Source of the DNA: an uncultured Tolumonas sp. | GTDB taxonomy: Bacteria > Pseudomonadota > Gammaproteobacteria > Enterobacterales > Aeromonadaceae | Assembly: GCF_963678185.1 (NCBI RefSeq) | Contig: NZ_OY782757.1 | Span: 372,001-436,000 of the forward strand | Direction: 5' to 3' | Length of the DNA stretch: 64,000 nucleotides | Part shown: positions 12,708 through 22,360 of the stretch, in pieces | Layout: each line of letters begins with the position of its first letter | Position numbering within the stretch: the first letter of the stretch is position 1 | Program-made: the position numbers and the translations under genes | Notes under the pieces: model-generated | Told to the model about the DNA's origin: nothing | Database searches by the model: none | Seen by the model: only the letters and a program-made list of their open reading frames with translations

Positions 12708-14036
12708 ATGTCAATCAACACAACATTCATTCAGGATAAAATGCTCAGTCTGATGCAATGGATCGGGCAAAATAAGTATTTGCAATCGATCATGCGTGGC
12801 ATGATGCTTGTGTTACCTGCAACTATTATGAGTTCTGTCGCAACACTGTTAAAAGTATTTCCTTTCGCGCCGTATCAACAGTTTATTATTTCTCATGGAT
12901 TAGGCCGGTATTTTGATATTCCTATCAATTTTACTAATAATTTCTTGGCGGTCATTGTCTCTTTTTCTGTTGCGTACACTTTAGCAAAAGCGTTCGATGT
13001 GGAGGGCTTCATCACTGGATTAATTTCCATGATCGCTTTTTTTATTCTAACGCCATATCAACTTGGTGAAGTGGGGCCGCTAGGGCAGGCATTTTTAATT
13101 CCAAGCCAATGGTTAGGGTCAATGGGATTATTTACAGGCATTCTTGTTGCGATCATTTCAACTCGAATATTTGTAGCTATCACCCAAAAAGGCTTAATTA
13201 TAAAAATGCCAGATAGCGTTCCAGAATTCATTTCAAAATCATTTTCATCATTAATTCCCGGCATTGTTATTTTAACGCTATTTACTATTATCTCAGCCGC
13301 TATCACCATGAATGGTTACGGTAGTATTCATGAGATCATTTATAAAGTTATCCAGGCGCCATTGACATCGCTGGGCTCAGGTATCGGTTCGGTCATCATT
13401 GTCGCTATTTTGGCGCAGTTATTGTGGTTTTTTGGTTTACATGGTCATGCGATCACATTAGGTATTGTTGCACCTATTTGGTTCGCTATGGATGCACAGC
13501 AGTTAGCCGCATATTCCGCGGGTGCCACGCCACCGAATATTACGGGCTTTGCTTTCTACATGACTTATGGTGTTGCAGGTAATTTATTACCATTAGCATT
13601 TATGCTGGCTTTTTTGGCCAAAAGTGAACGTTTCAAAACGTTAGGTAAAATTGCACTACCGCCAGCCATTTTTACCATCGGTGAACCAATGGCTTACGGT
13701 GTGCCTTTGGTGATGAACTTTGCCTTAGCGATCCCGTATATCCTGATTGATGCCGTTATATTAGGTGCAGCGTATTACCTTACTGTCATGGGGATATTGC
13801 CGCGTGTTGCCGGTGTTAGTACGCCAGCTGGTATGCCCGTTCTTCTTACTGGTTTTATGCAAGGAAGTTGGAAAATTGCAGGATTCCAATTTATTGCATT
13901 GTTTGTTCGCTTCGGGGCTTGGTATTTCTTCTTCAAGATTGCAGATCTCATTGCAGTAAAAGAAGAAAAGGCTGAATTGATCAACAATCAAGATAATTCA
14001 GAAAACCTTCACTCAGTACCAGACATTAATCAATAA
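12708..14036 (+). CDS. PTS EIIC, lactose/cellobiose family
   Basis: This is the integral membrane permease subunit of a cellobiose-type phosphotransferase system, 442 residues with about ten hydrophobic segments. Typical motifs are GLHGHAITLG and the FTIGEPMAYGVP segment that carries the sugar-binding glutamate. It imports a beta-glucoside-type sugar while passing phosphate from IIB. GGA lies 8 bases before ATG 12708; the TTG at 12666 is unlikely. The matching IIB and IIA genes are 6-8 kb downstream at 20235 and 20586, with a rhamnosidase, regulator, porin and hydrolase between. That split order is unusual. No other IIC gene is in the window, so these parts probably work together. Confidence 0.88.
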   Translation: MSINTTFIQDKMLSLMQWIGQNKYLQSIMRGMMLVLPATIMSSVATLLKVFPFAPYQQFIISHGLGRYFDIPINFTNNFLAVIVSFSVAYTLAKAFDVEGFITGLISMIAFFILTPYQLGEVGPLGQAFLIPSQWLGSMGLFTGILVAIISTRIFVAITQKGLIIKMPDSVPEFISKSFSSLIPGIVILTLFTIISAAITMNGYGSIHEIIYKVIQAPLTSLGSGIGSVIIVAILAQLLWFFGLHGHAITLGIVAPIWFAMDAQQLAAYSAGATPPNITGFAFYMTYGVAGNLLPLAFMLAFLAKSERFKTLGKIALPPAIFTIGEPMAYGVPLVMNFALAIPYILIDAVILGAAYYLTVMGILPRVAGVSTPAGMPVLLTGFMQGSWKIAGFQFIALFVRFGAWYFFFKIADLIAVKEEKAELINNQDNSENLHSVPDINQ

Positions 14037-14059
14037 TTACAGTAGGTACAGATAGGCAT

Positions 14060-20900: not shown

Positions 20901-20956
20901 AAATAAGTTTTCGGTTTAAAACTATTTATTTCAACGAATAATTTATTGGATAGATG

Positions 20957-22360
20957 ATGAAAAGATTTCCTGAGAATTTTCTTTGGGGTGGTGCTATTGC
21001 CGCCAATCAAGTTGAAGGAGCTTACGATCAAGATGGTAAGGGGCTGTCGGTCGCCGATGTTATGCCGCGAGGAATTTTAAACTCAACGCCTGTTCTTGAC
21101 GGAGAGTTGGGTAATTTCCCATATCATTCTGCTATTAATTATTATCAAACATACAAAACGGATAATGCGCTATTTGCAGAAATGGGATTTAAATGTCTGC
21201 GATTATCCATTGCGTGGACGCGTATATTTCCCAATGGTGACGATGCAACACCTAATGAAGCTGGTCTGAAATTTTATGACGATCTGTTTGATGATTTGAT
21301 TAGTAAGGGAATGCAGCCGGTCGTAACACTAAACCATTATGATTTACCGCTAGGTTTAGTGCGAAATTATGGCGGGTGGCGCAGTCGTGAGCTGATAAGT
21401 TGTTTTGAACGTTATGCGAAGACTGTTTTTACACGTTATCAGCATAAAGTTAAATATTGGCTCACGTTTAATGAAATTAACTGCGTTCTGCACTCTCCAT
21501 TTACGGCGGCTGGTTTGGTGTTAGAAGGGTCAGAAAATAAATTACAAATTCAGTATCAAGCTGCACATCATCAACTTGTTGCTAGTGCTTTGGCTGTGAA
21601 AGCCTGCCATGAAATTATCCCGGATTCTAAAATCGGTTGCATGATTGCCGCATGGCCTACTTATCCTGATACGTGCAATCCTGACGACTCGCTAAAAGCC
21701 ATGGCAAACGATCGACAAATGTTGTTCTTCGGTGATGTCCAAGCTCGTGGGGCTTACCCTGCCTATGCTCAGCGTATTTTCCGCGAAAATGGTTTTGAGA
21801 TAGAAATGGCAGCTGGTGATGAGGCCATTCTTAAGCAATATCCGGTTGATTATGTTGGTTTCAGTTACTATATGAGCCAAGTTGAAAGTGTTGATCCTGA
21901 CCGTCGTGCAAAAACAGCGGGTAATCTATTTGGCAGCCTGATGAACCCTTATCTTAAGGCATCAGAATGGGGCTGGCAGATTGATCCCAAAGGCATGCGG
22001 ATCATTTTAAATCAGCTCTATGATCGTTATCAAAAGCCGCTGTTTATTGTAGAAAATGGTTTAGGCGCCGTTGATTCGGTTAATGAAGACAATACGGTTA
22101 ATGACTACTATCGCATCAATTTCCTGCGTGAACACCTAGAGCAAGTTGCTGAAGGGATCGCTGATGGTGTTGAACTTATGGGCTACACAACTTGGGGGCC
22201 AATCGATTTAGTGAGTGCGTCCACGGGCGAAATGAAAAAACGATACGGCTTTATTTATGTTGATAAAGACAATGAGGGTAAGGGCAGTGGCCAACGTTTA
22301 CGCAAATTAAGTTTTGATTGGTATCGTCAGGTCATCGCAAGCAATGGTGAGCGCTTATAA
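20957..22360 (+). CDS. 6-phospho-beta-glucosidase, GH1
   Basis: A cytoplasmic GH1 enzyme of 467 residues hydrolysing 6-phospho-beta-glucosides produced by the PTS encoded just upstream. The N-terminal [16 protein letters not shown] signature, acid/base E173 in TFNE and nucleophile E366 in VENG are present. I prefer the second of two adjacent ATGs (20957) because GGA is then 6 bases away; 20954 is possible. It ends with a terminator and is the last gene of the glycoside locus. With the rhamnosidase it would complete breakdown of a rhamnosyl-beta-glucoside, although no rhamnose catabolic genes are in the window. Confidence 0.9.

Follow-up and report, generated by a model that had tools for sequence, protein, structure and literature searches.

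What does a rhamnosidase do beside the permease of a phosphotransferase system (PTS)? The question is raised by a locus in a 64,000-nucleotide stretch of DNA from an uncultured Tolumonas sp. (contig NZ_OY782757.1, positions 372,001 to 436,000; this whole stretch is called the window), where a gene for an alpha-L-rhamnosidase of glycoside hydrolase family 78 (GH78) follows the gene for a PTS permease, IIC. An original prediction, made from the window alone, proposed that a rhamnosylated beta-glucoside such as rutinose or a flavonoid rutinoside is phosphorylated on entry and dismantled inside the cell. We consider it probable that the locus serves the PTS-fed catabolism of an O-acylated alpha-L-rhamnosyl-(1->2, 1->3 or 1->4)-beta-D-glucoside, so that the intracellular, PTS-linked part of the proposal stands and the choice of rutinose and its glycosides does not.

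The linkage between permease and rhamnosidase carries most of this answer. In all nine genomes found to hold the window's clade of GH78 enzymes (five Gammaproteobacteria and four Enterococcus), an IIC gene on the same strand immediately precedes GH78; -3 to 77 nt separate its end from the earliest GH78 start possible, and the gap in the window is 23 nt. Among 21 GH78 loci that are more distant (blastp identity 21-27%), by contrast, not one has an IIC match within 5 kb. The nine genomes are not independent, the four Enterococcus being close to each other, and one of the five gammaproteobacterial genomes, G998, is counted for its gene neighborhood. The controls comprise nine distant loci from a search of the window's order and 12 from a search of the Pantoea allii family, which lies within that order, as is shown by three genomes with identical match coordinates that occur in both searches; G825, G831, and G1040 shared coordinates with G638, G620, and G708 and were counted once. 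Left uncounted were a second Klebsiella pneumoniae locus (L043, same species as L042) and an E. raffinosus locus (L044, same species as L048), both with IIC 5' of GH78, as well as L050, a 4-kb contig whose match, at 26%, covers a short stretch. The unit's GH78 is interrupted by an IS5-like element in L043 (12001-15922) and intact in L042.

The features of the locus are as follows.

12575-12611, + strand: operator-like direct repeat upstream of IIC; two 15-bp half-sites, period 22, matrix score 27.0
12708-14036, + strand: PTS EIIC of the lactose/cellobiose family; PF02378 and TIGR00410 above cut-off, aligns with 3qnq
14060-16678, + strand: GH78 alpha-L-rhamnosidase of the PTS-linked clade; four Pfam rhamnosidase domains, no signal peptide seen
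16708-17649, + strand: AraC-family protein, proposed regulator of the unit; PF12833 and PF02311, 3' of GH78 in gammaproteobacterial loci
17678-17706, + strand: terminator-like hairpin downstream of AraC; -13.5 kcal/mol, T tract
17728-17764, + strand: operator-like direct repeat upstream of LamB; matrix score 31.8, exact pattern match
17832-19115, + strand: LamB-type outer-membrane porin; PF02264, 59.8 bits against a cut-off of 25.1, hydrophobic N-terminus
19153-20118, + strand: exported esterase of the BD-FAE type; PF20434, 179.7 bits against 26.8, hydrophobic N-terminus
20170-20188, + strand: terminator-like hairpin in the esterase/IIB gap; T tract
20235-20540, + strand: PTS EIIB of the lactose/cellobiose family; PF02302, 77.0 bits, above cut-off
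20586-20900, + strand: PTS EIIA of the lactose/cellobiose family; PF02255, 109 bits, above cut-off
20954-22360, + strand: GH1 6-phospho-beta-glucosidase; NF007158 and NF007356 cut-offs passed, closest solved chain 6wgd

Domain and profile searches recovered all eight predicted genes with the families originally given to them, and allow several to be placed more closely. IIC, for which the ATG at 12708 was chosen in a frame already open from a TTG at 12666, exceeds the TIGR00410 cut-off (297.2 against 236 bits); its 297.2 bits fall short of the 434.45 of the cellobiose equivalog TIGR00359, so it should not be called a cellobiose transporter, and the chitobiose-IIC NCBIfam cut-off is not reached at this locus. 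Its H245 and E326 align with H250 and E334 of 3qnq, which we take to be active-site residues. IIB and IIA are, by their Pfam matches, lactose/cellobiose-family members whose finer class is not assigned by profiles, their NCBIfam scores lying below cut-off (TIGR00853, 92.2 against 110 bits; TIGR00823, 102.3 against 136.95 bits). The GH1 protein passes two cut-offs (NF007158, 672.4 against 639 bits; NF007356, 651.7 against 623 bits), falls below those of two other 6-phospho-beta-glucosidase subfamilies (616.3 against 624; 553.4 against 686), and has as its closest solved chain the 6-phospho-beta-glucosidase 6wgd. The AraC protein reaches none of the RhaS, RhaR, and ChbR equivalog cut-offs (RhaS, 67.7 against 288; ChbR, 37.1 against 264) and is assigned to the AraC family only.

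In keeping with the original prediction, no signal peptide was seen on GH78. The protein scores above cut-off for all four rhamnosidase domains (PF08531, N-terminal; PF05592, concanavalin-like; PF17389, six-hairpin; PF17390, C-terminal), and an in-frame stop lies 10 codons before its ATG. Nor is its N-terminus strongly hydrophobic: the maximal 15-residue mean hydropathy, the measure used here in place of a signal-peptide program, is 0.64, whereas the esterase reaches 2.27 and LamB 1.85. The window GH78 is therefore probably cytoplasmic. A position behind a permease gene is less odd for a GH78 than the original prediction implied, since 15 of the 21 control GH78 genes lie directly 3' of an MFS/GPH permease gene (domain searches were made on four of these permeases; the frames at one control, L103, are broken and overlapping).

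Could the two activities nonetheless serve separate substrates? IIC, IIB, IIA, and GH1 might form an ordinary beta-glucoside PTS while GH78 acts on an unphosphorylated rhamnoside brought in by another transporter, the two being merely co-regulated. The genome does encode another GH78 at a different place, close to an MFS_2 permease and the rhamnose isomerase RhaA, and PTS genes are known with varied partners, for instance a related IIC with a porin and UidA in Rahnella. Against this stands the constancy of the pairing, with IIC beside the GH78 clade in nine of nine genomes across two phyla, and the fact that GH78, not GH1, is the recurring glycosidase: the K. pneumoniae and Pantoea units, and L047 and L049 in Enterococcus, showed no GH1. 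We give the separation of substrates little credence.

Beyond the pair itself, the PTS-fed unit for a rhamnosylglucoside recurs in gene order. The series IIC-GH78-AraC-LamB-esterase-IIB-IIA is found in the window, K. pneumoniae, P. allii, and G547, and in two pieces in G998, making five gammaproteobacterial genomes, and GH1 stands directly 3' of IIA in the window and G547. One G998 contig carries IIC-GH78-AraC, with the GH78 frame broken, and a second carries the C-terminal part of AraC followed by LamB-esterase-IIB-IIA; the split within AraC and the broken frame (L092, L145) reflect either decay or an assembly fault. The four Enterococcus loci hold a divergent AraC, IIC, and GH78 only. Near two of them, L046 and L048, lie also a GH1 gene, another PTS, and an antiterminator-like gene, the extra PTS being identified by domain search of the E. 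raffinosus copy L044 and the rest by reading; the rhamnose-pathway genes RhaA, FGGY kinase, and class II aldolase follow the unit in L046. Neighbors were identified by blastp against the window proteins, a procedure that other glycosidases could escape. For the proposed co-occurrence of IIB, IIA, and GH1 with the IIC-GH78 pair, the outcome is divided: IIB and IIA accompany it in all five gammaproteobacterial genomes, whereas GH1 was seen there only in the window and G547, and Enterococcus has no IIB or IIA match.

Clade members occur in two of 394 genomes of the window's order (that of the window included) and in two of 295 genomes of the P. allii family (P. allii included), counts that are lower bounds, as the pattern-based scan that gave Pantoea and Enterococcus did not return K. 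pneumoniae. Searches with the window GH78 drew no match in 99 other relatives (E <= 0.001) or in 368 other genomes of the class (E <= 1e-20), and the window IIC query gave no other match above 32% identity in 100 genomes. A blastn search for distant relatives with the K. pneumoniae GH78 DNA gave no match in E. coli genomes, and a scan of viral contigs returned no confirmed relative of GH78. Where the enzyme does occur, its identity to the window protein is 51% in K. pneumoniae, 50% in P. allii, 46% in G547, 63% and 57% for the two pieces in G998, and 35% in the four Enterococcus genomes. To judge from these gene orders, the PTS-GH78 locus is a conserved, scattered unit and not a local oddity; the scatter suggests horizontal transfer, with loss elsewhere as the alternative.

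Which substrate would such a unit serve? Rutinose is Rha-alpha-(1->6)-Glc, in which glucose O6 is occupied and rhamnose is a 6-deoxy sugar, leaving no free primary hydroxyl; phosphorylation by a Lac-family PTS is therefore unlikely. The product of such a PTS is a sugar-6-phosphate, for example cellobiose-6-phosphate, in the available part of a Lactococcus lactis study (PMC4286628). With rhamnose linked 1->2, 1->3, or 1->4, glucose O6 is free to be phosphorylated. The gene families fit rutinose or a flavonoid rutinoside loosely, and rutinosides are common rhamnosyl-beta-glucosides; the usual C6 phosphorylation is nevertheless impossible on them, and an exported acyl esterase would have no role on simple rutinosides. 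Such substrates, together with the 6-phospho-rutinosides named in the original prediction, are chemically so ill-suited that we regard them as highly improbable. Rha-alpha-(1->2/3/4)-Glc-beta-aglycones that are deacylated outside the cell fit better. That the exported esterase is conserved together with the porin points to deacylation ahead of uptake, and acylation at O6 would in itself prevent phosphorylation.

The proposed pathway follows from these considerations. The substrate would pass the outer membrane through the LamB-type porin and lose its acyl group outside to the BD-FAE esterase; IIC, IIB, and IIA would then import the rhamnoglucoside and phosphorylate its free glucose 6-OH, cytoplasmic GH78 would remove rhamnose, and GH1 (in the window and one relative; elsewhere another phospho-beta-glucosidase) would split glucose-6-phosphate from the aglycone. 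AraC would control both IIC-GH78-AraC and LamB-esterase-(IIB-IIA-GH1) through direct-repeat operators, whether as activator or repressor. The released rhamnose is probably usable by the cell, RhaA being encoded in the window's genome and in all five genomes behind L045-L049. Verbascoside is an example of a phenylethanoid glycoside, with a caffeoyl ester and a Rha-alpha-1->3-Glc-beta-hydroxytyrosol core. Substrates of this type would use every gene, and have an outside chance of being the ones served.

A different source of rhamnose and glucose should be weighed here. The substrate might be a fragment of a bacterial or plant polysaccharide, such as an O-acetylated rhamnose/glucose oligosaccharide, with the esterase serving as a deacetylase. 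The nearest solved relatives of the esterase include, beside Lip_vut4, a carbohydrate esterase, an acetyl xylan esterase, and a GH43-CE protein; GH78 enzymes acting on polysaccharides exist, and the K. pneumoniae and Pantoea units show no GH1. Domain searches of the conserved unit found no lyase, endoglycanase, or uronic-acid enzyme, however, and the 6-phospho-beta-glucosidase added in two genomes fits a beta-glucoside. A polysaccharide origin shares most of its mechanism with the rhamnosyl-beta-glucoside pathway, so their likelihoods overlap; it seems to us unlikely, although it has the best chance of the explanations set out beside that pathway.

If the PTS phosphorylates the substrate, GH78 should meet a phosphorylated sugar, and its sequence offers a hint that it does. 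E472 and E742 align with E636 and E895 of 3w5m, presumably the catalytic pair, and D468, E472, D479, and E742 are invariant in an alignment of eight clade members and 20 controls. A tree places the eight intact clade GH78s together, apart from the controls, with support 100/100; it omits the broken-frame G998 and the fragmented L103 enzymes and has, by the tool's own warning, long branches between the clade and control groups. Columns 458, 463, and 471, all within 15 residues of the general acid E472, are basic in 8/8 clade members and 0/20 controls (columns 210 and 297, also basic in the clade, are basic in 10% and 20% of controls), and three aligned solved enzymes have no basic residue at 458 and 463. 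These residues hint at a phosphate site beside the leaving group. R471 is the weakest of the three: the alignment is ambiguous around it, and it may be the ordinary arginine of DCPQRDER, because the clade loop is two residues shorter than that motif. AlphaFold models of the window GH78 with five relatives reach a mean predicted local distance difference test (pLDDT) of 62.8 at full length and 62.4 for the catalytic domain, and both the region near 457-476 at full length and the matching part of the domain model stay below 50; the active site is resolved in neither model, and a phosphate pocket cannot be placed. We therefore advance only tentatively, at somewhat less than even chances, that the clade is a phospho-specific rhamnosidase cleaving L-rhamnose from the rhamnosyl-glucoside-6-phosphates of its own PTS, with phosphate bound by K/R458, H463, and possibly R471. 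Such a specificity would parallel that of the 6-phospho-beta-glucosidases within GH1.

How might the pieces be expressed together? Seven sites taken from K. pneumoniae, P. allii, and G547, and no window letters, went into a half-site matrix, and pairs were scored at period 22, the spacing of those sites. The two best window sites by this matrix are those in front of LamB (17728-17764, 31.8) and IIC (12575-12611, 27.0), as against a maximum of 17.7 in 40 first-order random sequences modeled on the window. In G998, whose sites did not enter the matrix, the top site on the scanned strand lies 365 nt in front of IIC. Exact matches to an IUPAC pattern fitted to the sites occur in the 3.95-Mb genome at the IIC-front and LamB-front places only. 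One mismatch adds 11859-11894 and one distant place, against one match of a reversed-pattern control; in G547, G786, and G998 the pattern gives 1, 3, and 2 matches against 5, 1, and 1 for the reversed control, and it lacks specificity once a mismatch is allowed. The motif was first read in upstream regions that included those of the window, so neither test is wholly blind; the matrix is the stronger. These shared repeats suggest that the IIC and LamB units form one regulon, and the place of AraC in the unit makes it the candidate binder. Matches to the CRP site have two mismatches in front of the window IIC and one in Pantoea, and a generic scan for promoters found no more than expected (48 against 48.9). 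A third, weaker repeat at about 11859-11895 (score 12.5, inside the random range) precedes an exported DUF3237 gene (11910 or 11961-12530), which may belong to the regulon.

The described separation of IIC from IIB and IIA, by four genes and two terminator-like hairpins, was confirmed, though it now looks less unusual, as the same order recurs in five genomes and separate IIC genes are published. The best-scoring hairpin in the AraC 3' and esterase 3' regions has -13.5 kcal/mol; a consensus terminator scan listed only that at 20170-20188 and not that at 17678-17706, and a further hairpin with a T tract lies 3' of GH1. The AraC/LamB-gap hairpin recurs in Pantoea and G547 and only weakly in K. 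pneumoniae (-4.7), while that of the esterase/IIB gap recurs in G547 and has no equivalent in K. pneumoniae (25-nt gap) or Pantoea. Because IIB has no site of its own in the window, transcription of IIB-IIA-GH1 would have to pass the 20170 hairpin or start from another promoter. Co-regulation of IIB-IIA-GH1 with IIC would require read-through.

Several observations weigh against the PTS-fed rhamnosylglucoside unit as drawn here. The front of IIB in the window holds no operator-like site (best score -14.2) and a hairpin precedes IIB-IIA-GH1, although IIB in G547 does have such a site, one of those used for training; and when periods of 18-26 were scanned, the matrix reached 19.9 at period 21, inside IIC on the - strand. 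The DNA retrieved around the K. pneumoniae and P. allii units showed no GH1, which leaves fewer loci behind the beta-glucoside part, and in blastp none of the window's porin, esterase, IIB, and IIA proteins had a match in the Enterococcus loci. Nor is RhaA strong evidence, since its search is positive in three of 14 control genomes as well. Finally, the best tree of nine paired IICs and 29 background IICs (those left of 53 once sequences were thinned at 80% identity) does not group the gammaproteobacterial with the Enterococcus IICs; a single clade was not rejected (p-AU 0.31), and this tree is compatible with either a single or a double origin of the pairing.

The surroundings of the locus deserve brief mention. 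Tannase/feruloyl esterase family genes (PF07519) flank it at 3390-5120 and 23476-25125, with signal-like N-termini by reading, and functions directed at plant phenolic esters may be common in the region. Another GH1 lies at 301-1740; a FAD_binding_2 flavoprotein, a flavin reductase-like gene, and two MFS genes occupy 6160-11026 on the - strand; and the apparent remains of a LysR-type regulator, C-terminus-like and helix-turn-helix-like pieces in different frames, were read at 11529-11876 on the - strand. Outer-membrane efflux-like, TetR-like, membrane-fusion-like, and RND-like genes stand in a row at 29035-35475 (by reading). Elsewhere in the genome, at about 3789988-3802057 (L052, L069), the second GH78 near the MFS_2 permease and RhaA seems to form a permease-type rhamnoside locus besides the PTS-type one. 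The Rahnella IIC (43%) lies on a plasmid from a hyacinth bulb (L146, 6275-11476), with IIA, IIB, a UidC-annotated porin, and a UidA-annotated beta-glucuronidase.

Each component belongs to a known family, and both PTS uptake of plant glucosides and an IIC apart from its IIB and IIA are already published; we found no description of a PTS-GH78 unit in the open-access literature searched, a scope outside which most subscription journals lie. The unit suggests a route, open to testing, by which rhamnosylated glycosides could enter through a PTS, and it singles out a branch of GH78 that allows a direct assay of substrate phosphorylation. If the branch is phospho-specific, it would constitute a phosphate-dependent class of rhamnosidase missed by screens with unphosphorylated rhamnosides.

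Among known systems, E. coli chbBCARFG also combines Lac-family IIB, IIC, and IIA with an AraC regulator inside the operon, and includes a GH4 enzyme and a deacetylase where the window locus has GH78, GH1, porin, and esterase. In L. lactis, celB (IIC) likewise lies in another region than ptcBA (IIB/IIA), and CelB/PtcBA has a phospho-beta-glucosidase partner, BglS, and a shared activator, ClaR; that system differs, in the available part of its description, in its substrates cellobiose and lactose, in its RpiR-type activator, and in keeping IIB/IIA in a separate region rather than four genes from IIC (PMC4286628). Lactobacillus acidophilus takes up plant beta-glucosides through PTS genes with phospho-beta-glucosidases (LBA0725/0726, LBA0225-0228), and its EIIC LBA0227 is also without IIA or IIB in its own locus; the substrates in the available part of that account are glucosides (salicin, esculin) and beta-1,6-diglucosides, with no rhamnosidase mentioned there (PMC5698550). 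As a Gram-positive, L. acidophilus also has no porin. Similar in layout are the control loci L083, L088, L089, L093-L101, and L103, which share the arrangement AraC-permease-GH78 but have MFS in place of IIC, a GH78 only about 23-25% identical (blastp), and no phosphorylation to be expected. The slot between AraC and GH78 thus appears fixed; some lineages fill it with an MFS, others with a PTS.

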